From Calditrichota bacterium (lineage in GTDB: Bacteria; Zhuqueibacterota; Zhuqueibacteria; Zhuqueibacterales; Geothermadaptataceae), in assembly GCA_008501765.1 (NCBI GenBank), contig QQUE01000012.1, positions 186,001-250,000 on the forward strand: a DNA stretch of 64,000 nucleotides. Direction: 5' to 3'. A program made the translations under genes and the position numbers. The notes under the pieces are model-generated. The model saw nothing but the letters and a program-made list of their open reading frames with translations. It was not told the origin of the DNA and did not search any database. Position 1 is the stretch's first letter. Each line of letters begins with the position of its first letter. Shown here in pieces: positions 12,164-62,441 of this stretch.

Positions 12164-12312
12164 TATTCGATTATTCCTTAAGAATTATAAAACATTTGTG
12201 ATCAAAATTTAGACTCTGTTCTTCCGCCTGCCAGGGATATCTTTAGACGAAGTAAACTGCAGGCGAGTTCTGTTCGTTCGAAAATTTCGGAAAAAATCAG
12301 TCGAGATTTAGC

Positions 12313-12471
12313 GTGAGTTCGATGAAAGCTGTAACATTCTTTACCAAGCATAACTAAAATAGAGCGAAGGCGTCTCGCCGAGCGTTTCGTGCGTTATCCT
12401 CGGCGGGACGCCTTCGGACTATATCTTATGATTAATTCGTTTTGTCCCAATTCTTCTTTTACCGAATTCAC
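12313..12471 (-). repeat. 159-bp MITE-like element, copy 1
   Basis: This segment is the reverse complement of 62190-62348, with the same length and only scattered differences. The ends are GTGAGTTCGAT and a diverged GAATTCAC. The centre is a strong hairpin, with GCGAAGGCGTCTCGCCGAG facing CTCGGCGGGACGCCTTCG. It has no coding capacity. Matched ends plus a conserved internal hairpin suggest a nonautonomous mobile element. Confidence 0.8.
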
Positions 12472-12558
12472 GTTAGATTTAGCAATCGAAATATTGCAAA
12501 TATTATAAAGCATGTATCGATTGTTTTATTCCATCTTCTCGAATGAACTAAACCACAA

Positions 12559-12863
12559 GACTGAAAGTCCATTATTCAAGCATTAAATTTTCATAATTTG
12601 TAAGCCATCTTTTTCAATTGGTCATTAAAATGATCTTTCCCCCAGCGCCTACGCTAAACAGGAAATGCTTTTATTGGCCACAGATTAACACCGATGAAAC
12701 ACGGATTTTTTAAACCCGATAAAATCTGTGTTCAATCAGTGTAAATCAGTGGCTGATGTTTCTTCAATTCAATATTTGCATTGCATCTTTATTTTTTATG
12801 GCATTAACTGAAAGTCTTGCGCTGGAAGCGCATAGTTTTAAACTAGCGCGCAGAAACAATAAA
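12559..12863 (+). repeat. 305-bp dispersed direct repeat, copy 1
   Basis: Nearly identical to 51467-51771 in the same orientation; by eye I find four substitutions in 305 bases and no gap. It contains a hairpin GGACT-GAA-AGTCC at its left edge, a palindrome of the CCACAGATTAACAC / GTAAATCAGTGGC family in the middle (about 12677-12753), and a TGCGCTGGAAGCGCA hairpin near its right end. The flanks differ between copies. It encodes no plausible protein. Confidence 0.9.
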
Positions 12864-23557: not shown

Positions 23558-23944
23558 ATGACTGAAAACGAATTATCATATGAAATCATTGGTTCTGCAA
23601 TTGAAGTTCATCGAATTCTTGGTCCTGGTTTGTTGGAATCAGCTTATGAAGAATGTCTTTGCTACGAGCTTAAGCAGAAAAAAATCAAATTTGATCGTCA
23701 ACTTTGGTTGCCAATGCGATATAAGGATGTCATCGTTCGAGAAAAAATGTACCGATTGGATATTTGGGTTGAAGAGAAAGTAGTTATTGACATAAAGTCT
23801 GTGGAGAGAATTCCACCTGTGTTCAAAAAACAGGTTTTAACTTATTTAGAGCAAACGGGCAGCACGCTCGGGCTTCTGCTAAATTTCAATGTGCCCGTAC
23901 TTAAAGATGGAATTGAACGTGTAGTTCTGGGATTAAAAGAATGA
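23558..23944 (+). CDS. GxxExxY protein, copy 1
   Basis: A 128-residue protein of the GxxExxY family, defined by GLLESAYEECL after IEVHRILGPG (about residues 15-35). The second half has the PD-(D/E)xK-like pattern RLDIWVEEKVVIDIKS (about 68-83), so a nuclease-related fold is likely (PDDEXK_3 group). Its function is unknown. It is inserted between mmsA and a phosphoesterase gene, bounded on both sides by CGCAAAG-type repeats, and has no evident link to pyrimidine breakdown. The start codon is ATG with GGGGG upstream. Confidence 0.9.
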   Translation: MTENELSYEIIGSAIEVHRILGPGLLESAYEECLCYELKQKKIKFDRQLWLPMRYKDVIVREKMYRLDIWVEEKVVIDIKSVERIPPVFKKQVLTYLEQTGSTLGLLLNFNVPVLKDGIERVVLGLKE

Positions 23945-27195: not shown

Positions 27196-28578
27196 ATGTC
27201 AGTTCTTATTAAAAACGGGCGTATTGTGACTGCGGGAGCAGATTACATCGCTGATATTTTTGTCGAAGGGGAGAGCATCTCCGCCATCGGCAAAAACCTT
27301 GCTGTTTCCGCCGACAAAACAATTGATGCCACGGGAAAGCTGGTATTCCCGGGTGGCATTGATCCGCACGTGCATCTTGATTTACCGTTCATGGGCACTT
27401 ATTCAAGTGATAATTATGAAACCGGAACTCGCGCTGCACTATTTGGTGGCACGACATCCGTCATCGATTTCGTCATCCAAAGCCAGGGTCATTCCATGCA
27501 TTCCGCCGTGGAAGAATGGCACAAAAAGGCTGATGGCAATGCTTTTGGCGATTACGGATTTCACATTGCTGTCACCGATTTCAACCCGGATTCACGCGCT
27601 GAAATCAATGATTTGATCAAATACGGCATCACTTCTTTCAAAGTATTTATGGCCTACAAAGGCGCTTTAATGATCGATGATGAGCAGATGATCGGCATCA
27701 TGAACGAAGTGAAGCAGCACGATGGCATGGTTTCCGTGCACGCCACCAATGGTGATATGATCGATTTTCTGGTGAAAAAACATCAGGCCGAAGGGAAGCT
27801 CACCCCGCACTACCATTATTTATCGCAACCGGAAATCACCGAAATCGAAGCATCCGGACGTTTTATCGATATCGCCAATTACACCGGCGTGACCTGCCTG
27901 ATTGTGCATATGACCAGCGGCGGCGCCCTGGACAAAGTTCGCGATGCCACCAAACGAAATCAGAAAGTTTTCGTCGAAACCTGCCCACAATATTTACTTT
28001 TGGATGCGTCAGTATATGAAAAAGAAAATTTCGAGGGTGCGAAATGGGTGATGTCGCCACCGATTCGAGAGAAAAAAGATCAGGCGGCGTTGTGGGCTGG
28101 CTTGAATCAGGGATTGATCAATTTTGTTGGCACCGACCATTGCCCATTTTTTATGGAACAAAAAAGAATGGGCCAAGATGATTTTACCAAAATTCCCAAC
28201 GGAGCCCCGGGAATCGAACACCGGCTCGAGCTTCTTTACAGCGAGGGTGTGCGAAAAGGCCGCATCAGCCTAAATAAATTCGTTGAAATAACTTCCACCA
28301 ATGTTGCGAAAATATTTGGCATGTATCCCAACAAAGGCACGCTCGCCATCGGCGCCGATGCGGATATCGTCATTTTTGATCCCGAAGAACAGCACACAAT
28401 TTCAGCCAAAACGCACCATCACAATTGCGATTATTCCAGCTACGAAGGTTGGGATGTCACCGGCAAATGCAAAACCGTGCTCGTCCGGGGTGTTGTTGCC
28501 ATTGAAAATAATGAGGTTAAAATCGAGAAAGGATTCGGCCAGTTCGTAAAACGCGGCCCGACGTCACTGGTAATTTAA
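27196..28578 (+). CDS. hydA: Dihydropyrimidinase
   Basis: A 460-residue cyclic amidohydrolase. Metal ligands are in GGIDPHVHLD (about 54-63), the carboxylated-lysine region SFKVFMAYKG (about 145-154), the SVHATNGD and HMTSGG histidines, and GTDHCPF (about 312-318). It opens dihydrouracil to N-carbamoyl-beta-alanine, or dihydrothymine to the methylated analogue. It lies between the permease and beta-ureidopropionase genes and matches the second step of the reductive pathway. AGAGG precedes the ATG. Confidence 0.93.
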   Translation: MSVLIKNGRIVTAGADYIADIFVEGESISAIGKNLAVSADKTIDATGKLVFPGGIDPHVHLDLPFMGTYSSDNYETGTRAALFGGTTSVIDFVIQSQGHSMHSAVEEWHKKADGNAFGDYGFHIAVTDFNPDSRAEINDLIKYGITSFKVFMAYKGALMIDDEQMIGIMNEVKQHDGMVSVHATNGDMIDFLVKKHQAEGKLTPHYHYLSQPEITEIEASGRFIDIANYTGVTCLIVHMTSGGALDKVRDATKRNQKVFVETCPQYLLLDASVYEKENFEGAKWVMSPPIREKKDQAALWAGLNQGLINFVGTDHCPFFMEQKRMGQDDFTKIPNGAPGIEHRLELLYSEGVRKGRISLNKFVEITSTNVAKIFGMYPNKGTLAIGADADIVIFDPEEQHTISAKTHHHNCDYSSYEGWDVTGKCKTVLVRGVVAIENNEVKIEKGFGQFVKRGPTSLVI

Positions 28579-28588
28579 GTATATTTTA

Positions 28589-28670
28589 ACACAAAGGCAC
28601 AGAGGCGCGAAGTTTCATAGAAAAAATCTTTACGCTTATCTGCATCTTAGCATAAAGTTTTAAATTTTAT
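28589..28670. repeat. CACAAAGGCACAGAGG-type dispersed repeat
   Basis: Begins ACACAAAGGCACAGAGGCGC just after hydA and continues to a partially inverted CTTTACGCTTATCTGCATC stretch. This class of noncoding repeat recurs in many bacterial genomes. It lies upstream of the BRO-N gene. Confidence 0.45.
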
Positions 28671-28774
28671 ACAAGTTTGGGATGAGCGCATACCACATTT
28701 TCATTAGAAAGCCAAGTAATGACAACAATTGAAGGAGCATTTAAAAAAAATAGAATGGTAAGAGGGGACTAATT

Positions 28775-29611
28775 ATGACTGATCAAGCGAATAAAATGGT
28801 CGTATTCCAAAGCAAAGAAATCCGTCGCATTTGGCATGACGATGCGTGGTATTATTCCGTTGTCGATATCATCGCTGCTTTAACCAGCAGCCCGACTCCC
28901 AGGCAATATTGGGGCAAGGTCAAGGAACGAGAATTTGTAAAACTTCAACTGTCCCCAATTTGGGTACGTTTGAAATTACGTGCACCTGATAGTAAATTGC
29001 GCTTCACCGACTGTGTAAATACCAAAGGTGCATTTCGTCTCATCCAATCCATCCCATCCAAAAAAGCGGAGCCGTTTAAACGTTGGCTCGCTCAGCTTGG
29101 GCAGGACCGGTTAGATGAAATCGAAAATCCTGAGTTGGTGCAACAGCGGATGAAAGTGATTTATGAGAAAAAAGGCTACCCGCAGGACTGGATTGATAAA
29201 AGATTGCGTGGTATCGCCATACGGCAAAACCTGACTGAAGAATGGCGGAAACGCGGAATCGATTCTCAAAAAGATTTTGCCATTTTAACCGCTGAAATTT
29301 CAAAAGCGACGTTTGGCATGACACCTTCGCAATACAAAAAACACAAAAATCTGCCTGAAAAATCCAAAGCCAACCTGCGCGACCACATGGATGATTTGGA
29401 GTTGATATTTACGATGCTTGGCGAACGTGTGACCACGGAAATATCAAAAAACGAAAAACCGGTATCATTTGTGAAAAGCAAAAAAGTAGCGCAACGCGGG
29501 GGAAAAGTCGCGGGAAATGCACGTAAAGAAACAGAAAGAGAACTGGGAAAAAGCATTATCACAAAACAAAACTTTCTACCAAAAAGTGGAAAAAAAGAAG
29601 TGGATAATTAA
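28775..29611 (+). CDS. BRO-N (phage antirepressor-like) domain protein
   Basis: A 278-residue protein. Residues about 8-105 match the BRO family N-terminal domain: RRIWHDDAWYYSVVDIIAAL, a PRQYW motif, then FRLIQSIPSKKAEPFKRWLAQLG. BRO-N domains occur in phage antirepressors and as stand-alone bacterial DNA-binding proteins. The C-terminal part is helical and ends in a basic Lys/Arg-rich tail (KKVAQRGGKVAGNARKETER region). It interrupts the pyrimidine operon between hydA and the ureidopropionase gene, in the same direction, with its own AGAGGGG ribosome site. Function here is unknown. Confidence 0.8.
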   Translation: MTDQANKMVVFQSKEIRRIWHDDAWYYSVVDIIAALTSSPTPRQYWGKVKEREFVKLQLSPIWVRLKLRAPDSKLRFTDCVNTKGAFRLIQSIPSKKAEPFKRWLAQLGQDRLDEIENPELVQQRMKVIYEKKGYPQDWIDKRLRGIAIRQNLTEEWRKRGIDSQKDFAILTAEISKATFGMTPSQYKKHKNLPEKSKANLRDHMDDLELIFTMLGERVTTEISKNEKPVSFVKSKKVAQRGGKVAGNARKETERELGKSIITKQNFLPKSGKKEVDN

Positions 29612-29694
29612 ACCGAATAACGATTGAAAAATGAAACAGCAAATTTAACTTTCTAAAATAAGATTTAAAATTAAACTTAGTTCCGGAGGGAATA

Positions 29695-30561
29695 ATGCCA
29701 CGAATGATAAAATCTGGTCTGATCCAAATGAGCCTGCCGATGACAGAAGGCGAGGGCACAATTGAAGAAATCATGCAAGCGATGGAGGCCAAACATACGC
29801 CATTTATCGAAGATGCAGGTAACCGCGGTGTACAGATTTTGTGTTTGCAGGAAATTTTTAATACGCCTTATTTTTGCCCCGGCCAGGACTCCAAATGGTA
29901 TGCATCGGCCGAGTCTGTTCCCGGCCCGACAACCGAAAGGATGGCGGCATTTGCAAAAAAATACGGCATGGTGATGATCGTGCCCATATTCGAAAAAGAA
30001 CAGGCCGGTTTTCTCTACAACACCGCCGCCGTCATCGATGCGGATGGCAGTTATCTTGGCAAATACCGCAAAAATCATATTCCACACACCTCCGGATTTT
30101 GGGAAAAATTCTTCTTCAAACCCGGCAATCTGGGCTACCCTGTATTCCAAACGAAATATGCAAAAGTCGGTGTTTACATTTGCTATGACCGTCACTTCCC
30201 GGACGGCGCACGAATATTGGGGCTGAACGGCGCCGAAATCGTCTATAATCCTTCCGCAACAGTGGCTGGATTATCGCAATATTTATGGAAACTTGAACAG
30301 CCTGCGCACGCTGCCGCCAACGGCTATTTTATGGGCTGCATCAATCGCGTGGGTGTTGAAAAACCGTGGAGCATCGGTAAATTTTACGGCTCCTCCTATT
30401 TCGTCGATCCGCGCGGTCAAATCCTGAAACAGGCATCGGAAGATAATGACGAGTTACTGGTTGCCGAATTCGATCTCGACGTCATCGAAGAAGTGCGCTC
30501 AGTGTGGCAATTCTATCGCGACCGGCGCCCGGAGACTTATGGAAAACTAGTTGAGCTTTAA
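29695..30561 (+). CDS. N-carbamoyl-beta-alanine amidohydrolase (nitrilase family)
   Basis: A 288-residue carbon-nitrogen hydrolase with the E-K-C triad: Glu in CLQEIFNTPYF (about residue 45), Lys in YRKNHIPH (about 125) and Cys in YICYDRHFPDGAR (about 162). These motifs match beta-ureidopropionase, the third step: N-carbamoyl-beta-alanine to beta-alanine, CO2 and ammonia. It begins behind an excellent CCGGAGGG ribosome site, needed because the BRO-N gene separates it from hydA. Confidence 0.92.
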   Translation: MPRMIKSGLIQMSLPMTEGEGTIEEIMQAMEAKHTPFIEDAGNRGVQILCLQEIFNTPYFCPGQDSKWYASAESVPGPTTERMAAFAKKYGMVMIVPIFEKEQAGFLYNTAAVIDADGSYLGKYRKNHIPHTSGFWEKFFFKPGNLGYPVFQTKYAKVGVYICYDRHFPDGARILGLNGAEIVYNPSATVAGLSQYLWKLEQPAHAAANGYFMGCINRVGVEKPWSIGKFYGSSYFVDPRGQILKQASEDNDELLVAEFDLDVIEEVRSVWQFYRDRRPETYGKLVEL

Positions 30562-30597
30562 AAGCGGTTGTTTGCGATTAGGTGTTGGCATTTAGCT

Positions 30598-30633
30598 AAG
30601 AAAATCCAACAGCCAATAGCCAATAGCTTAATT
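30598..30633. repeat. Cargo-flanking GCCAATAGC repeats, left
   Basis: Tandem AACAGCCAATAGCCAATAGC before the four-helix-bundle gene. Related AGCTAACTGCCAACAGC units follow the gene at 31005-31037. Confidence 0.6.
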
Positions 30634-30654
30634 AATTAAATGGGGGTTGGTTCA

Positions 30655-31011
30655 ATGAGAGATTTCAGAACTTTAAGTATTTGGCAAGAAGGAATAGTAA
30701 TTGTCAAGCATGTTTACAAAGTGGCGCAATACTTACCACCTGAAGAAAAATATGGTTTAAGGAGTCAAATCACACGGTGTGCTGTTTCTATTCCATCTAA
30801 TATTGCTGAAGGTTGTAGCCGGAGCAGCCAAATTGATTTTAAGCGATTTCTTGAAATAGCATTAGGTTCAGCATTTGAATTGGAAACTCAATTAATCATT
30901 ATGGAAGAGCTATCTATTATTGCCGGAGATCTAAATAATATAAAGCTCCAGCTAAACAAAGAACAAAAAATGATAAATAGTCTAATCTCCAAACTAAAAG
31001 CCAACAGCTAA
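30655..31011 (+). CDS. Four-helix-bundle protein (S23/IVS family)
   Basis: A 118-residue all-helical protein with the hallmarks DFRTLSIWQEG, YGLRSQITRCAVSIPSNIAEGCSR and FKRFLEIALGSAFELETQL. This is the family first seen inside intervening sequences of 23S rRNA genes and later as small genes scattered across genomes. Its function is unknown. The ATG at 30655 gives the normal family start; an ATG 15 bases earlier is possible. It sits between two pyrimidine genes, bounded by GCCAATAGC/GCCAACAGC repeats. Confidence 0.88.
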   Translation: MRDFRTLSIWQEGIVIVKHVYKVAQYLPPEEKYGLRSQITRCAVSIPSNIAEGCSRSSQIDFKRFLEIALGSAFELETQLIIMEELSIIAGDLNNIKLQLNKEQKMINSLISKLKANS

Positions 31012-31037
31012 CTGCCAACAGCTAACTGCCAATAGCC
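31005..31037. repeat. Cargo-flanking GCCAACAGC repeats, right
   Basis: AGCCAACAGCTAACTGCC is repeated with small changes, overlapping the end of the four-helix gene and reaching the ribosome site of preT. Confidence 0.6.
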
Positions 31038-31055
31038 ACGACAAAGGAGTCCCCT

Positions 31056-32378
31056 ATGCCGGAATTCCGGCGGCCAAAAAGTGAGGCCGATTTTCATAAA
31101 AATTTCGAGCAAATAAAACCATTGATGAGCAAAACAGAGGCAAATCAGGAGAGTGGGCGCTGCTTGTTCTGTTACGATGCGCCATGTGTAAAAGCCTGCC
31201 CGACGAGCATCGATATACCATTGTTTATCAGGCAGATAAACAATGGAAATTTGAGCGGTTCAGCAAAAACAATTTACGCTGCCAATTATTTCGGACGTAT
31301 TTGCGGCAATGTCTGCCCCACAGAAGTATTGTGCGAAGGAGCCTGTGTTTTTGAAAAACAAAATATTCGACCAATTGATATCGGGCGATTACAAACTTAT
31401 GCCACCTACAACTCCATTCGAAATAATAAAAAACACTTCGAGCTGGCAGCAGACAACGGCAAAAAAGTAGCGATTATCGGTGCCGGACCGGCAGGCATAT
31501 CCTGTGCGTGCGAGCTGCGAAAACTTGGATTTACTGTCGATATTTTCGAGGCAAAATCGCAGCCTTCCGGCCTGACGATTTACGGCGTTGCACCCTATAA
31601 AATCACCAACGAAGACGTGCTTGAAGAAGTAGCCTATTTGCAGGAACAATTTCAATTTAAAATTCACTACAATTCTGCTATCCAGAGCAAAAAAGATTTG
31701 GCGCGCCTCGATTCAGAATACGACGCAATTTTTCTCGGTATTGGGTTGGGAAGCACCTCCGGAATTGGAATTAAAGGTGAAAATCTTGACAATTGCATCG
31801 GTGCCGTTGAGTTTATCGAAAACATGAAAATGGAGAAGCACGACACGAAAATTGGCAAAAATGTAATCGTTCTGGGTGGCGGCAATACGGCCATGGACGC
31901 AGCATCAGAAGCTGCCCGTTTGGGCGCCGAAACGGTGATGCTGTGTTACCGTCGCTCAAAAATCGAAATGCGCGCGTATTGGTTCGAATATGATTTGGCA
32001 AAATCAGTTGGCACGAGGGGCGTATTTAACGCAGCACCGTTGGAAATAATTGGAACGAGCCATGTCGAAGGTGTCAAATTCGCCCAAACGGAAATTATCG
32101 ATGGAAAAGTTAAAATTCTTCCCGGCAGTGAATTTATAAAACCATGTGATATGGTTATCAAAGCCACCGGCCAGGAAACGCAGGTAAATTTGCTCAATCA
32201 AATTGACAAAATTAAACTGGATAAAAATGGCTGTATTAGCATAAACCTCGAAACCGGCCAGACCACCAATCCAAAATATTTTGCCGGTGGCGATGCCATC
32301 AATGGTGGTAAAGAAGTCGTCAACGCCGCCGCAGATGGCAAAAAAGCAGCAACAGGAATTAATCAGTTTTTGCAATGA
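31056..32378 (+). CDS. preT: NAD-dependent dihydropyrimidine dehydrogenase, flavin/FeS subunit PreT
   Basis: A 440-residue GltD-like oxidoreductase. The N-terminal cysteine motifs CLFCYDAPCVKACP (about 35-48) and CGNVCPTEVLCEGAC (about 85-99) bind Fe-S clusters. VAIIGAGPAGISCA (about 136) binds FAD and VIVLGGGNTAMDAA (about 268) binds NAD(P). With PreA it interconverts uracil or thymine and the dihydro forms, the first step of the pathway. AAAGGAG precedes the ATG. The preA gene lies downstream but is separated by an inserted GxxExxY gene, unlike the usual adjacent pair. Confidence 0.93.
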   Translation: MPEFRRPKSEADFHKNFEQIKPLMSKTEANQESGRCLFCYDAPCVKACPTSIDIPLFIRQINNGNLSGSAKTIYAANYFGRICGNVCPTEVLCEGACVFEKQNIRPIDIGRLQTYATYNSIRNNKKHFELAADNGKKVAIIGAGPAGISCACELRKLGFTVDIFEAKSQPSGLTIYGVAPYKITNEDVLEEVAYLQEQFQFKIHYNSAIQSKKDLARLDSEYDAIFLGIGLGSTSGIGIKGENLDNCIGAVEFIENMKMEKHDTKIGKNVIVLGGGNTAMDAASEAARLGAETVMLCYRRSKIEMRAYWFEYDLAKSVGTRGVFNAAPLEIIGTSHVEGVKFAQTEIIDGKVKILPGSEFIKPCDMVIKATGQETQVNLLNQIDKIKLDKNGCISINLETGQTTNPKYFAGGDAINGGKEVVNAAADGKKAATGINQFLQ

Positions 32379-32383
32379 CTATT

Positions 32384-32470
32384 TAAAGCCACGGATTCAC
32401 ACAGATGAAACACTGATTTTCCTGGCATTATTTAATTATCAGTGTTCCATCCGTGTCGATCAGTGGCTGA
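32384..32470. repeat. Palindromic CCACGGATTCACAC repeat, left of GxxExxY 2
   Basis: AGCCACGGATTCACAC on the left mirrors GTGTCGATCAGTGGCT on the right, with AACACTGAT facing ATCAGTGTT inside. The right half (32438-32468) recurs exactly at 32890-32920. The same family appears within the 305-bp repeats. Confidence 0.85.
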
Positions 32471-32518
32471 ATAAATTGTATGTGTAGCCTGTAATCAATA
32501 CAACAGGGGGGTGAGAAT

Positions 32519-32887
32519 TTGGATTTAAAACATGAAAAAATAACGGTAGATATAATTGGCTCAGCTTTTGAAGTTCATAATATTCTCGGTTATGGTTTCC
32601 TGGAAAAAGTTTATCAGAAAGCATTACAAATTGAATTACTGCATCGAGGGCACACCGCTGAAATAGAACATGCTATAAAAGTAACTTACAAAGAAGCAAT
32701 TGTTGGTGAATATGCAGCAGATTTATTAGTCGATGGCAAAGTCATCGTTGAGCTAAAAGTAGCAAAGGAATATAATTCACAAGATGAACCACAACTGCTC
32801 AATGAATTAAAAGCGACAGAAATAAAAGTCGGTTTGCTCATCAATTTTGGCAAAGAAAAAGTAGAATTCAAACGCTTCGTTTATTGA
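32519..32887 (+). CDS. GxxExxY protein, copy 2
   Basis: A 122-residue relative of the GxxExxY gene at 23558, with FEVHNILGYGFLEKVYQKAL and a nuclease-like YAADLLVDGKVIVELKVAK. The two copies are clearly divergent, so they are not a recent duplication. The start is TTG with GGGGGGTGAG just upstream; the nearby ATG is out of frame. The gene lies between preT and preA, flanked by exact 31-base direct copies of half a palindromic repeat. Confidence 0.85.
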   Translation: MDLKHEKITVDIIGSAFEVHNILGYGFLEKVYQKALQIELLHRGHTAEIEHAIKVTYKEAIVGEYAADLLVDGKVIVELKVAKEYNSQDEPQLLNELKATEIKVGLLINFGKEKVEFKRFVY

Positions 32888-32889
32888 AA

Positions 32890-32920
32890 ATCAGTGTTCC
32901 ATCCGTGTCGATCAGTGGCT
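32890..32920. repeat. 31-bp direct repeat, right of GxxExxY 2
   Basis: Identical over 31 bases to 32438-32468: it begins ATCAGTGTTCC and ends GATCAGTGGCT. It starts three bases after the GxxExxY stop codon. Confidence 0.9.
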
Positions 32921-32967
32921 TAAATATTTTTTCCATTTTTTATACTATTATAAAGGAGACACACCTC

Positions 32968-34308
32968 ATGCCGGATTTATCAGTCAACTTTGCAGGTATT
33001 CAATCACCAAATCCTTTCTGGCTGGCTTCTGCGCCGCCGACAAATTCGGGTTATCAGGTGATGAAAGCATTTGATGCCGGCTGGGGCGGCGCCGTCTGGA
33101 AAACCATGGGCATCCCCATAGTTAATGTTTCCAGCCGCTATGGCGGGGTCAATTACAAAGACAAACGTTTGGTTGGACTCAATAATATTGAATTAATTAC
33201 GGACCGGCCACTGAAGGACAATTTGCGTGATATCGAAGAAGTAAAAAAATATTTCCCCAACCATCCGGTCATTGCCTCGCTCATGGTCGACAGCCGGGAT
33301 GAATGGCAGCAGATCATAAAAGATGTGGAAAACGCCGGCAGTGATGGACTCGAGCTCAATTTTGGCTGTCCGCACGGCATGTGCGAACGCGGCATGGGCT
33401 CGGCGGTTGGACAGGAACCAAAAATATTGGAGAGGATTACGGCGTGGGTGAAGGAAGTGGCAACAACGCCCGTCATTGTAAAATTGACCCCGAATATAAC
33501 CGATATCCGCGAACCAGCACGCGCAGCGCGAGCCGGCGGCAGCGATGCAATTTCCTTGATAAATACAATTCAAAGCCTTGTCGGCGTCGATATCGATAAT
33601 TTTGTCCCCTACCCTGTCGTTGACGGATTGAGCACAAACGGCGGTTATTGCGGCCCGGCGATCAAACCAATCGCACTCAATATGGTAAAAGAATGCGCGA
33701 TGGATCCCGGTGTTGGAATTCCGATTTCAGGAATTGGTGGCATCGAAAATTGGCGCGATGTTGTGGAGTATTTATTACTCGGCTCGACCACAATTCAGGT
33801 GTGCACCGCAGTGATGCACTACGGTTTTGGCATCGTGCGTGAACTGACCGCGGGACTCGAGCAATATATGCTCGACAAAGGCTTTAATTCTGTCGACCAA
33901 ATGATTGGCAAAGCGTTGCCGAACGTAAAACCATGGGAACATCTAAATCTCGAATATCAGGTCAAAGCACAAATCGAAGACGAACTTTGTATCGGTTGCC
34001 AGCTTTGCTACATCGCCTGTGAAGATGGCGCCCACCAGGCTATTCGTCTCAATGAAAACAACGAATTACGCATTCCTTCGATCATCGAAGAAAACTGTGT
34101 CGGTTGTAATTTGTGCTCTCTCGTTTGCCCGGTGGATAATTGCATTTCCATGGTGCGTACCGATTCCGGCAAAAAAATCGAAACCTGGCATCAGCGCACG
34201 GAAAAAGGCAGCATTCCCACAACCTGGAATGACAAACGCGCCGGCGGTGTCGGTCACTGGATTCCCGAGCCGAAAGATGCTTTAAAACAAGATAAGAAGG
34301 AACTATAA
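32968..34308 (+). CDS. preA: NAD-dependent dihydropyrimidine dehydrogenase subunit PreA
   Basis: A 446-residue protein with a dihydroorotate-dehydrogenase-like FMN barrel (about 1-340; SAPPTNSG, ELNFGCPHGMCERGMG, VKLTPNITDI, SGIGGIENWRDV). A C-terminal ferredoxin domain has two CxxCxxxC motifs, CIGCQLCYIAC and CVGCNLCSLVCP. It reduces or oxidises the pyrimidine ring with electrons passed from PreT. I chose the ATG at 32968, ten bases after TAAAGGAG, rejecting an upstream extension that would translate the flanking repeat. Confidence 0.95.
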   Translation: MPDLSVNFAGIQSPNPFWLASAPPTNSGYQVMKAFDAGWGGAVWKTMGIPIVNVSSRYGGVNYKDKRLVGLNNIELITDRPLKDNLRDIEEVKKYFPNHPVIASLMVDSRDEWQQIIKDVENAGSDGLELNFGCPHGMCERGMGSAVGQEPKILERITAWVKEVATTPVIVKLTPNITDIREPARAARAGGSDAISLINTIQSLVGVDIDNFVPYPVVDGLSTNGGYCGPAIKPIALNMVKECAMDPGVGIPISGIGGIENWRDVVEYLLLGSTTIQVCTAVMHYGFGIVRELTAGLEQYMLDKGFNSVDQMIGKALPNVKPWEHLNLEYQVKAQIEDELCIGCQLCYIACEDGAHQAIRLNENNELRIPSIIEENCVGCNLCSLVCPVDNCISMVRTDSGKKIETWHQRTEKGSIPTTWNDKRAGGVGHWIPEPKDALKQDKKEL

Positions 34309-34338
34309 TTCCCCCTTTGAAGGGGGTTTGGGGGATGT
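34309..34338. repeat. CCCCCTTTGAAGGGGG repeat, copy A
   Basis: A palindrome CCCCCTTTGAAGGGGG followed by TTTGGGGGATGT, directly after preA. Copy C at 34881 has the same order and copy B at 34736 is inverted. Confidence 0.85.
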
Positions 34339-34340
34339 AG

Positions 34341-34712
34341 ATGGCAAGAAATAAACTTATATCCTACAACCCAAAACTAAAAGGTTTTGCAAAAAAATTA
34401 CGTAAAAACAGCACCCTCTCTGAAATCCTTCTTTGGAAGCAAATAAAAGGAAAAGCGCTTGGATTTGAATTCCATTGCCAAGTTCCCATGGATGAGTTTA
34501 TCGTTGATTTTTACTGCCATGAACTAATGCTCGCAATTCAAATTGATGGCGAAAGTCATGAATACAAATACGATTATGACAGCCAAAGACAAGCAGAACT
34601 TCAAAAATTTGGCATTACATTTATTCGATTTTCAGATTTGGATGTAAAGAAAAATATGAGGAGTGTTTTACTCGCGTTGGAACAAAAAATCAGGTTACTG
34701 GAATCAAGTTAA
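34341..34712 (+). CDS. DUF559 endonuclease-like protein
   Basis: A 123-residue protein of the DUF559 family (very-short-patch-repair-endonuclease-like fold): LRKNSTLSEILLWKQIKGKALGFEFHCQVPMDEFIVDFYC, then the conserved IQIDGESH and RLAELQKFGITFIRF-like block (here RQAELQKFGITFIRF). Asp in IVDFYC and Glu in DGESH are the presumed metal ligands. Function is unknown. It lies between preA and the aminotransferase gene, bounded by GC-rich palindromic repeats in inverted orientation. Confidence 0.88.
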   Translation: MARNKLISYNPKLKGFAKKLRKNSTLSEILLWKQIKGKALGFEFHCQVPMDEFIVDFYCHELMLAIQIDGESHEYKYDYDSQRQAELQKFGITFIRFSDLDVKKNMRSVLLALEQKIRLLESS

Positions 34713-34735
34713 ACTGTGGTGAATTTCAGCGGAGG

Positions 34736-34767
34736 ACATCCCCCTTATCCCCCTTCGAAGGGGGAAT
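34736..34767. repeat. CCCCCTTTGAAGGGGG repeat, copy B (inverted)
   Basis: ACATCCCCCTTATCCCCC followed by TTCGAAGGGGGAA, the reverse orientation of copies A and C. Confidence 0.85.
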
Positions 34768-34880
34768 TCAGAATCCGATTTTTTTGAATCATTAATGCCA
34801 GATTTCATGTAGAATGGAGTAAACAAATCACTATTTAATGAGCAGAACTGAATCAGGTAAAACAGTAAGTACAGATGAAA

Positions 34881-34910
34881 GCTCCCCCTTTGAAGGGGGC
34901 GGGGGGATGT
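34881..34910. repeat. CCCCCTTTGAAGGGGG repeat, copy C
   Basis: GCTCCCCCTTTGAAGGGGGC followed by GGGGGGATGT, same orientation as copy A, between DUF559 and the aminotransferase gene. Confidence 0.85.
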
Positions 34911-34951
34911 AATCGCCCCAACATTTTAATCAAAACGAAAGAGGATACAAA

Positions 34952-36229
34952 ATGCCCGATAAAACCCTGCAAAAGCATAAAGATTATCTTTTTCCCAGCG
35001 TGGCAAACTATTACAAAGATCCCCTGGTTATCGAAAGCGGGGAGGGTTATTATGTCTACAGCAAAGACGGCCGGAAATATCTCGATTTTTTTGGTGGCAT
35101 TCTCACCGTCAGCGTCGGGCATTGCAATCCGAAAGTGACCAGCAAAGTCAATGAGCAAAACCAGAAACTGCAGCACACATCCACGCTCTATCCCAACGAT
35201 AATATTGTTAATCTGGCAGAAAAATTAGCCCAGATTACTCCCGGGAAATTACAAAAAACGTTCTTCACCAGCGCGGGCACCGAAGCCGACGAAACAGCCG
35301 TTTTTATGGCGCAACACTATACCGGCAATCAGGAAATTATTGCGTTGCGGCATGGGTACAGCGGCCGTTCCATGCTGGCGATGAGCCTAACCGCACACGC
35401 TTCGTGGCGCCATGGCGGCACCCAGATTGCGGGAATCAAACACGCTGTGAATCCGTATTGCTACCGCTGCCCGCTCGGCCTCACTTACCCAGGTTGCGAC
35501 ATAAAATGTGCCCAGGATATTGAAGAAGTAATCATGACGACAACCTGCGGCGAAATCGCGGGATTTCTCGCTGAGCCAATTCAGGGCGTCGGCGGATTTA
35601 TCACTGCGCCACCCGAATATTTTAAAGTGGCAGTTCCTATCATCAAAAAATACGGCGGTGTTTTTATCTGCGACGAGGTGCAAACAGGCTTCGGCCGTAC
35701 TGGCAAACGCATGTTTGGCATCGAGCATTGGGAAGTGGAACCGGATATCATGACCTGCGCCAAAGGCATGGCCAACGGCGCGCCTATCGGAGCCACTATC
35801 GCACGCACGGAAATCGCCGACAGTTTTACCGGATTGACCATCTCGACATTTGGCGGCAATCCCGTTTCGATGGCAGCGGCATTAGCGACAATTCAGGTAA
35901 TCGAAGAAGAAAAATTAGCACAAAATGCCCATGAAGTTGGTGGTTATTTACGGGAAGGTCTGCTCGATTTGCAGAAAAAATACCCGGCCATGGGTGATGT
36001 CCGCGGCATGGGCCTGATGCAAGGAGTCGAATTTGTCGGAGAAAATAAAGTGCCTGACGCCGAACTGGTGGCCAAGCTTTTTGAAGAGACCAAAAAGGAT
36101 GGTGTACTTATAGGCAAAGGCGGATTATACGGCAATGTAATACGCATCGCGCCGCCGCTAACTATTAGCAAAAGCGAGGTAGATGATTTTATCCGTGTAC
36201 TCGATGCAGCACTGGGACGGTGTAAATAA
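34952..36229 (+). CDS. Class III aminotransferase (beta-alanine transaminase role)
   Basis: A 425-residue PLP enzyme. It has SAGTEADETAV, FICDEVQTGFGRTG (about residues 237-250) and the PLP lysine in MTCAKGMANGAPIGA (about 272). It resembles alanine-glyoxylate aminotransferase 2 and omega-amino-acid transaminases. In this operon it most likely converts beta-alanine (or 3-aminoisobutyrate) to malonate (or methylmalonate) semialdehyde, the substrate of MmsA encoded at the front. GAAAGAGG precedes the ATG. This is the last recognisable pathway gene. Confidence 0.9.
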   Translation: MPDKTLQKHKDYLFPSVANYYKDPLVIESGEGYYVYSKDGRKYLDFFGGILTVSVGHCNPKVTSKVNEQNQKLQHTSTLYPNDNIVNLAEKLAQITPGKLQKTFFTSAGTEADETAVFMAQHYTGNQEIIALRHGYSGRSMLAMSLTAHASWRHGGTQIAGIKHAVNPYCYRCPLGLTYPGCDIKCAQDIEEVIMTTTCGEIAGFLAEPIQGVGGFITAPPEYFKVAVPIIKKYGGVFICDEVQTGFGRTGKRMFGIEHWEVEPDIMTCAKGMANGAPIGATIARTEIADSFTGLTISTFGGNPVSMAAALATIQVIEEEKLAQNAHEVGGYLREGLLDLQKKYPAMGDVRGMGLMQGVEFVGENKVPDAELVAKLFEETKKDGVLIGKGGLYGNVIRIAPPLTISKSEVDDFIRVLDAALGRCK

Positions 36230-51131: not shown

Positions 51132-52043
51132 AAGGAGATGAATTTGCCTGTGGTTGTCCCGAATTACATATTGAAATTTGTGTGATATTTTTTATCCAAA
51201 TGATGATGCACTTCAATTTTTGAGCATTGTTTTGCAATTAATATTTCCCCATCAAAATTTTCCTCATCGCGGTACCCGCTGCATTGAGGATAATTTTATG
51301 CTCTTCTTCTACTTTTCGAATTTATTTTACATCAATTCAACCATCGTTTCAAAAGTTCTCACAGGATATCCACCACAGAAATCTGAAATATTAAGTTTTA
51401 ATTAATATGGATTTCCATGTCTTTCCACTAAACCACTATGCACTGCAATTGCATAGTTTTGGCCAGGACTGAAAGTCCATTATTCAAGCATTAAATTTTC
51501 ATAATTTGTAAGCCATCTTTTTCAATTGGTCATTAAAATGATCTTTCGCCCAGCGCCTACGCCAAACAGGAAATGCTTTTATTGGCCACAGATTAACACC
51601 GATGAAACACGGATTTTTTAAACCCGATAAAATCTGTGTTCAATCAGTGTAAATCAGTGGCTGAAGTTTCTTCAATTCAATATTTGCATTGCATCTTTAT
51701 TTTTTATGGCATTAACGGAAAGTCTTGCGCTGGAAGCGCATAGTTTTAAACTAGCGCGCAGAAACAATAAAAATGGATTTTGAAATTTGCAGTATGATTA
51801 GTAGCTTAATACTATGTAATTTTTCAAGACCAATACCTCCCCCAAAATAGAATTTTTCCAGGTCAGATATACTTATTCAGATTTAATCAATGGCACAGAT
51901 TCGCAACACAAAAATATCAGCAGGAGAAAAAATTATTCTCATTTCAGGAAATATTCATTCCAAAAGTCATGTTATGGCAGCATATTGTTAAAAATTGATG
52001 GATGAAATAACCAACCGAATTTGATCCTCTGAAAGAAGGTGTA
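51132..52043. other. Intergenic region with 305-bp repeat
   Basis: The gap between pip and the oxidoreductase gene contains copy 2 of the 305-bp direct repeat (51467-51771). The rest shows no gene or RNA I can support. Confidence 0.6.
51467..51771 (+). repeat. 305-bp dispersed direct repeat, copy 2
   Basis: Nearly identical to 12559-12863 (about four substitutions). Upstream of the common part, copy 2 has CACTATGCACTGCAATTGCATAG, a hairpin related to the TGCGCTGGAAGCGCATAG hairpin at the right end, where copy 1 has only a short AA. Confidence 0.9.
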
Positions 52044-61700: not shown

Positions 61701-62188
61701 AGCACACAATAAGTTTACTCGTTGAAAACAGCGTTGGCAGCCTTTTGCGCATCGCCGGGATGTTCAGCGGTCGCGGATTTAATATCGACAGTATTTCCGT
61801 CGGCGCTTCCGAAGAAAAAGGCATGTCGCGCATGACAATTGTTACCCAGGGTGATGATGAAATTATCGAACAAATTAATAAACAGCTCCATAAATGTATT
61901 AATGTTATTAAAGTATTTGATCTCACACAGGAAGCATTTGTGCATCGGGAGCTGGCGTTGATAAAAGTCAAAGCAACGCAGGCTGAACGGTTGGAAATAA
62001 TGCAAATCGTCGAGGTATTCCGGGCGAAAATAATCGATATTTGCCCAAGCGGTTTAACAGTTGAAACCACCGGCACTGAAGACAAAATCAACGCGATAAT
62101 TTCGATGCTACGGCCTTTTGGATTAAAAGAAGTTTCGCGTACCGGCCGAATTGCGGTGAAGCGGGATTTTCAGGGCAGTGTTAATTAA
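61697..62188 (+). CDS. ilvH: Acetolactate synthase small (regulatory) subunit
   Basis: A 163-residue regulatory subunit with the ACT domain at the start (HTISLLVENSVGSLLRIAGMFSGRGFNIDSISVG) and the C-terminal ALS_ss domain (ELALIKVKA, EVFRAKIIDI, TGRIAVKRDFQG). The ACT domain binds valine to inhibit IlvB. Length fits the single-ACT form. The gene overlaps ilvB by four bases. A 159-bp mobile-like element begins two bases after its stop. Confidence 0.95.
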   Translation: MKHTISLLVENSVGSLLRIAGMFSGRGFNIDSISVGASEEKGMSRMTIVTQGDDEIIEQINKQLHKCINVIKVFDLTQEAFVHRELALIKVKATQAERLEIMQIVEVFRAKIIDICPSGLTVETTGTEDKINAIISMLRPFGLKEVSRTGRIAVKRDFQGSVN

Positions 62189-62189
62189 T

Positions 62190-62348
62190 GTGAGTTCGAT
62201 ATAGGAAGAATTTGGACAAAACGAATTAATTATAGGATATAGTCCGAAGGCGTCCCGCCGAGGATAACACACGAGACGCTCGGCGAGATGCCTTCGCTCT
62301 ATTTTAATTATGCTTGGTAAAGAATGTTACAGCGTACATCGAACTCAC
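62190..62348 (+). repeat. 159-bp MITE-like element, copy 2, inside the ilv operon
   Basis: Ends are perfect inverted copies: GTGAGTTCGAT (62190) and ATCGAACTCAC (to 62348). The core hairpin CGAAGGCGTCCCGCCGAG faces CTCGGCGAGATGCCTTCG. It matches 12313-12471 in opposite orientation with identical length. It separates ilvH from ilvC in the message. Confidence 0.88.
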
Positions 62349-62441
62349 GTTAACTAATAACAAATAGCTTATAAATTATATAGCAGACGGTTTGCCGCTG
62401 AAAATTGCGGCTCAATTCTGCAAATAACAACAGGAGAAAAT

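Follow-up and report, generated by a model that had tools for sequence, protein, structure and literature searches.

The segment at 32387-32920 of the window (the whole stretch of DNA analysed here, 64,000 nucleotides from a Calditrichota bacterium) is likely a discrete mobile element between preT and preA, in which a GxxExxY gene lies within a palindrome whose arms would be recognised by the encoded nuclease and copied by host repair. We are highly confident of the core of this reading, namely that the arms and the gene form a discrete mobile unit. Comparison at the sequence level shows that the arms and the gene co-travel and that they insert in the sense orientation between co-transcribed genes without detectable target-site duplication. 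It likewise shows a unit that occupies a given junction in some genomes, is missing from it in others, and is found again at unrelated junctions.

Arms and inserts in the pyrimidine-degradation operon

The GxxExxY element has the layout L-R1-gene-R2 (Table 1). L, a 20-nt loop and R1 make up a complete palindrome; the arms are runs of three units of about 10 bases (CCACGGATTCA/CACAGATGAAA/CACTGAT) and their ends read AGCCAC...GTGGCT. L is complementary to either right arm at the same 26/31 positions, R1 and R2 being identical. The 31-mer ATCAGTGTTCCATCCGTGTCGATCAGTGGCT has exactly two copies in the window, as R1 and R2, and none on the minus strand of the window. R2 starts two bases past the TGA stop of the GxxExxY ORF. 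The initial annotation was correct in placing these exact 31-bp repeats on both sides of the gene and in linking the gene with a palindromic repeat family. Measured over the gene, the inverted arms score 30, compared with a maximum of 15 when the same geometry is shifted along the locus. We also considered a chance origin of the repeats, which is ruled out by the exact 31-bp copy, the shifted-position controls and the HepT controls described below. In RNA, L can pair with R2 around the gene, and this fold is modestly better than those of shuffled sequences (z -1.95), while the alternative fold is the upstream L-R1 hairpin. An Rfam search of positions 11000-53000 gave no structured-RNA match.

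Since the two right arms share one sequence whereas L has diverged, the copying of the right arm is probably recent, and the exact identity represents one layout variant. The second copy most probably arose when palindrome halves underwent duplication or gene conversion, either as the element inserted or later. The class contains all of the layouts L-gene-R, LR-gene-LR, LR-gene-R and L-gene-LR; therefore, the half-repeat duplication is a variable detail, one layout among several, and not the defining event.

Table 1 Operon genes, inserts and arms, by position in the window
Feature	Position	Strand	Description
Hydantoinase	27196-28578		operon gene, named from its sequence
Fourth filled junction	28589-29611	+	decayed GxxExxY-type palindrome (~28589-28665), then Bro-N/DinD-like gene (28775-29611); gap empty in G042
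CN-hydrolase	29695-30561		operon gene
S23/IVP insertion	30566-31037	+	same general plan as the GxxExxY element; gap empty in G042
S23/IVP arms	30566-30597 and 31013-31037; additional right-arm copy 30606-30627		~7-bp units
S23/IVP gene	30640-31011		four-helix bundle, PF05635
preT	31056-32378	+	operon gene 5' of the GxxExxY insertion
Left arm (L)	32387-32417	+	three ~10-bp units, AGCCACGGATTCACACAGATGAAACACTGAT
First right arm (R1)	32438-32468	+	inverse of L, 26/31
GxxExxY gene	32519-32887	+	TTG start, 122 aa
Second right arm (R2)	32890-32920	+	same sequence as R1; L and R2 pair over the gene in the minimum-energy RNA fold
preA	32968-34308	+	operon gene 3' of the GxxExxY insertion
DUF559 insertion	34307-34768	+	gene 34341-34712 (PF04480), arms 34307-34338 and 34736-34768; gap empty in G042
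Aminotransferase	34952-36229		operon gene, named from its sequence

The host operon is a five-gene pyrimidine-degradation operon (hydantoinase, CN-hydrolase, preT, preA and aminotransferase), and each of its four junctions contains a small gene in the operon direction, in order Bro-N/DinD-like, S23/IVP, GxxExxY and DUF559. G042, another genome of this class, carries these five genes in unchanged order (hyd-CN-preT-preA-AT), with 72-85% protein identity to those of the window, and all four of its gaps are empty, each being only some tens of bases long; this operon spans two contigs whose overlap falls within preA. There, preT adjoins preA and the gap has no palindrome. The comparison with an insertion-free genome that the initial annotation had called for thus supports its view that an insertion split preT from preA.

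The S23/IVP insertion shares the L-R-gene-R layout of the GxxExxY element. The decayed palindrome 5' of the Bro-N gene reads ACACAAAGGCACAGAGGCGCGAAG..., and we looked for an arm downstream of this gene but found none. DUF559 genes, in the window (34307-34911) and at L063-L066, L204 and L206-L208, have arms such as CCCCCTTTGAAGGGGG or CCCATCC..GGAGGGGAC, and a third, gene-free copy of the window arm lies at 34883-34911. The region 27196-36229 is a cluster of insert-type elements, with a further GxxExxY gene at 23570-23923 and a DUF559 gene at C3:177397. Elsewhere in the window, 12308-12475 and 62186-62353 form a 168-nt inverted repeat pair that is 91% complementary, with 50 kb between the two copies.

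Arms, relatives and insertion sites across genomes

Arms were scored by inverted local alignment of 160 bp on each side of a gene, and the same measurement at shifted positions of the same locus served as the control. Across the class, 55/72 GxxExxY genes score at least 16 (control 95th percentile, 15), and in named genomes, which cover many bacterial phyla and two archaea (Methanosarcinales), 60/80 lie above the control 95th percentile. Inverted arms were also found around 23/32 S23/IVP genes and around DUF559 genes, 5/5 in the window's own genome and 10/18 elsewhere in the class. HepT, a small and patchily distributed family taken as a control, gave no arm signal (median 11, no higher than background). 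No arms were detectable at about a quarter of the GxxExxY genes, some of them being at contig ends or decayed.

The grammar of the arms differs by family: the period is 9-10 bp for GxxExxY and shows sharp peaks at 7, 14 and 21 bp for S23/IVP, and the DUF559 arms are G+C-rich palindromes without a period. Among the GxxExxY genes of the class, arm likeness rises with protein likeness (Mantel r 0.31, 0/2000 permutations); the correlation is weak across phyla (r 0.11, 84/2000), in a set that comes from one query and is narrow in arm types. S23/IVP genes at L127 (G036), L058, L060, L133 and L143 are flanked by arms of 7-bp units, and the arm at L127 contains TAACTGATAACTGA, a heptamer described from Beggiatoaceae (PMC4679880). 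The heptanucleotide repeats may belong to S23/IVP elements.

The closest relatives of the window GxxExxY protein are found at unrelated loci in other genomes. It is 82-84% identical to the proteins of dnaN-recF elements in G010 and G011 and 76% identical to that of a sucC-sucD element in G041 (sucC, sucD, dnaN and recF were identified from their sequence and not by profile search), and these elements have arms of the CACGGAT/CACAGAT type, as in the window. The DNA homology of the window element to one dnaN-recF element (L191) starts exactly at the left arm edge and takes in the upstream palindrome. Other GxxExxY copies within the window's own genome are only 27-47% identical to one another. 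Because the near relatives sit at unrelated loci elsewhere and the own-genome copies diverge, the sequences indicate that the arms and the gene travel together and that copies are in most cases acquired from outside and not multiplied inside the genome.

These results do not support the earlier proposal if it is read as a single event in which the gene entered an unrelated existing repeat and left the half-palindrome duplication as its mark, since arms of the same grammar bracket GxxExxY in most genomes tested and the nearest relatives (76-84% aa) carry the same arm type at unrelated loci, with the L191 homology beginning at the arm edge. The same evidence bears on the model of the initial annotation put as passive capture, in which the palindromes are older dispersed repeats spread by another agent, and homologous recombination or repair between copies brought the gene in with duplication of one half. 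This genome has many gene-free palindromes of the same arm family, some of them inside an unrelated ~300-bp repeat, and L has diverged from the identical pair R1 and R2, all of which would be expected from such capture; however, in the different genomes a given protein clade or family goes with a given arm type, arms flank the gene at the majority of its loci in many phyla, and the dnaN-recF homology includes the upstream palindrome. We therefore regard passive capture as quite improbable.

Genome-wide, the 19-base arm pattern had 77 matches with up to three mismatches, compared with 4 for the reversed control, and most of these pair as ~25 palindromes, nearly all gene-free. The initial annotation had held that a half repeat common without cargo in tandem arrays would make the duplication independent of the gene. 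This is seen in part, in that the genome has many full palindromes that contain no gene. Two palindromes with enlarged loops (C14:506816-507203 and C14:978246-978495) were considered as decayed GxxExxY copies and rejected, as tblastn found no recognisable remnant.

A ~300-bp dispersed repeat is found at 12556-12855 and 51464-51763 and at L011, L012, L017, L019-L024 and L026. The 10 copies aligned are ~98% identical and have a gene-free GxxExxY-type palindrome in the middle, and this looks like a separate, recently spread MITE-like repeat. The repeats at 12.6 and 51.5 kb had been proposed as donor sites. They do contain palindromes of a related family, but these are divergent, being 82-85% identical to the window right arm, and belong to a separate multi-copy repeat, so that they are weak evidence for donors and were set aside as such.

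The dnaN-recF junction, like that of preT-preA, can be compared with empty sites. In G007 and G009, dnaN ends three bases before recF and the junction has no palindrome, and in G010 and G011, of the same genus, it contains ~640 bp of element. We considered whether the arms are the cut site of the nuclease and the gene alone homes into gene-free palindromes that spread separately. An intercistronic nuclease gene with cognate arms, many solo palindromes in the genome, layouts in which each side of the gene may have a half or a full palindrome, and the lack of a target duplication would all suit such homing. We nevertheless find it unlikely because neither the 3 nt between the genes in the empty dnaN-recF congeners nor the preT-preA gap of G042 offers a palindrome as a target, although a bare-palindrome intermediate is conceivable.

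Beside the arms, there was no excess of direct duplication (1970/5000 permutations as high). The outer flanks of 43 GxxExxY loci have a modest excess of inverted symmetry at positions 3-22 (0/5000 permutations), fading after ~18 bp, which may mean that the element runs beyond its arms or that symmetric sites are favoured as targets. The flanks in the window show such symmetry, reading TATTTAA-element-TTAAATA. Insertion at the centre of a pre-existing palindrome was considered and set aside, as the flank symmetry is too weak to claim it and is partly explained if the element ends exceed the arms.

At loci where both neighbours could be called by a longest-ORF heuristic and were co-directional, the small gene is sense in 114 cases and antisense in 8 (49:3 for GxxExxY in the class, 42:4 for GxxExxY in named genomes, 18:1 for S23/IVP and 5:0 for DUF559). 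This sense bias fits a putatively promoterless gene that relies on, or is only tolerated in, a host transcript.

GxxExxY genes occur in 55/63 genomes of the class, S23-like genes in 56/63, and GxxExxY genes are also present in many other phyla. The GxxExxY copy number per genome in the class ranges from 0 to 21, and some copies have stop codons. A plasmid or phage vehicle was rejected, with hits in 8/72,556 plasmids and in none of 50,697 phage records. Contigs of relatives end within a few hundred bases of the GxxExxY gene at L160, L162, L166, L169, L170, L176 and other loci, as expected if the arms are multi-copy and break assemblies.

A predicted nuclease and a possible route of movement

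The window GxxExxY protein matches PF13366 (E 8.8e-37, 126.5 bits, cut-off 22) and TIGR04256 (E 3.5e-38, 130.5 bits, NCBIfam cut-off 35). The best PDB fold match of its AlphaFold2 model (pLDDT 92.1) is Cas4 SSO0001 (4ic1, E 6.3e-4), followed by lambda exonuclease and MGME1, all of which are RecB/Cas4-like nucleases; a sequence search found no solved homologous structure. The catalytic residues D68, E78, K80 and Q92 are present in the window protein, and over 143 members the catalytic D is conserved in 142/143, E or D in 143/143 and K in 141/143. The protein is thus a predicted PD-(D/E)XK nuclease of RecB/Cas4-like fold. A domain search of the ORF identified PF13366 only, with no HUH/Y1, DDE, serine or tyrosine transposase.

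When elements from different loci are compared, dN is ~0.1 and the synonymous sites are near or at saturation. Because of this difference, the protein is taken to be under strong purifying selection and has stayed functional as it moved. Such selection could also be expected of a regulatory or defence cassette, in which the gene serves the host (e.g. in nucleic-acid surveillance) while the arms act as signals for transcription or RNA stability or as autoregulatory operator iterons. The operon position, the sense orientation and the iteron-like units, which would suit a binding site, agree with this possibility as well. However, the insertion splits tightly spaced operons, the arms are symmetric on both sides, and the copies with stop codons and the patchy copy number look like turnover. 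In addition, the PADLOC models of the defence library gave no match for the GxxExxY or IVP protein. We consider a host-function cassette very unlikely.

In the mechanism that we propose for the mobile element, the nuclease would recognise the iterons of its arms, probably in extruded-hairpin or single-stranded form. That the protein recognises its own arms is probable, and such recognition would explain the family-specific unit length and the co-variation of arms and protein. The cut made by the nuclease would then allow host repair to place a copy of the element between two cistrons or in a solo palindrome already resident there; whether nuclease activity drives the mobility is, in our judgement, evenly balanced. 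In the transcript, a stem formed by the arms could enclose the gene, an arrangement known from 23S rRNA intervening sequences, and RNase III would separate the element from the operon message, limiting polarity. We regard this RNA-level excision as doubtful.

Several observations stand against the explanation. The copies within the genome are usually very different, so there has been no intragenomic burst of the kind that an active transposon leaves. The correlation of arms with protein is weak across phyla, about a quarter of the genes have no detectable arms, and the RNA stem is only modestly better than shuffled sequences. Furthermore, the nuclease is not a general engine for all three families because the S23/IVP elements, which have the same plan, encode no known nuclease fold; in these, the cut may come from the host.

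More tentatively, three unrelated small protein families, GxxExxY, the S23 four-helix bundle and the DUF559 nuclease, could each be encoded by a distinct type of mobile palindromic element that has a unit grammar of its own, GxxExxY being a minimal Cas4/RecB-type nuclease that acts as a recombinase for its own iteron arms, outside the known transposase classes, across bacteria and archaea. GxxExxY and S23-like genes have so far been annotated by motif or fold only; if they are what mobile palindromic elements encode, each family with iterons of its own, a large set of orphan genes would be explained. The CACGGATT-, CAGGAT- and heptamer-type intergenic repeats would then gain an owner, the rRNA intervening-sequence plan would extend to mRNA operons, and ready protein-DNA pairs would be at hand for studying how a Cas4-like nuclease could move DNA. 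If the nuclease proved to be a recombinase, it would be categorically new.

Comparison with known mobile and repeat systems

We found no description linking GxxExxY to such repeats in open-access full text. Because relatives across many bacterial and archaeal phyla are packaged alike, our results suggest that a very common 'hypothetical' gene family belongs to a largely unrecognised kind of selfish mobile element.

Free-standing intercistronic homing endonucleases are found in phage T4 genomes, and the GxxExxY gene resembles them as a nuclease gene placed between conserved neighbours. In contrast to these, the GxxExxY element occurs at unrelated loci, has its own arms and is absent from the phage records searched. 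The inverted arms across the gene are similar to the terminal inverted repeats of a classical insertion sequence or MITE, but there is no target-site duplication and the ORF has no DDE, serine or tyrosine transposase domain.

The STRR of cyanobacteria are heptanucleotide intergenic repeats, and they and the TAACTGA repeats of Beggiatoaceae have the same 7-bp unit grammar as the S23/IVP arms. In the excerpted account of the TAACTGA repeats, no gene is tied to the repeats and a mobile TAACTGA-binding protein is suggested (PMC4679880).

In the 23S rRNA intervening sequence of Coxiella burnetii, an S23 ORF lies in the loop of a 28-bp inverted-repeat stem that is cut by RNase III, and the sequence has been called selfish (PMC4990558). 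The window element is likewise a small ORF in an inverted-repeat stem, sense to the host transcript, and the S23 family occurs in the window operon too. The element differs in that it sits in a protein-coding operon (preT/preA) instead of helix 25 or 45 of 23S rRNA and in that its nuclease-fold protein is unrelated to S23, RNase III excision being putative here.

In REP/RAYT systems (REPtrons), a gene is bracketed by its own type of palindrome and gene-free palindromes are scattered in the genome (PMC3733652, PMC3116915). The GxxExxY element shares with them a gene with its own palindromes, gene-free copies and the pairing of protein and repeat, whereas it lacks both an HUH/Y1 tyrosine transposase and the GTAG or CGTC tag that marks one end of a REP palindrome, its arms are ~10-bp iteron runs and its gene-free copies are far fewer. 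In summary, the element works like a REPtron and is built like an rRNA intervening sequence, and by the defining tests of both it is neither.
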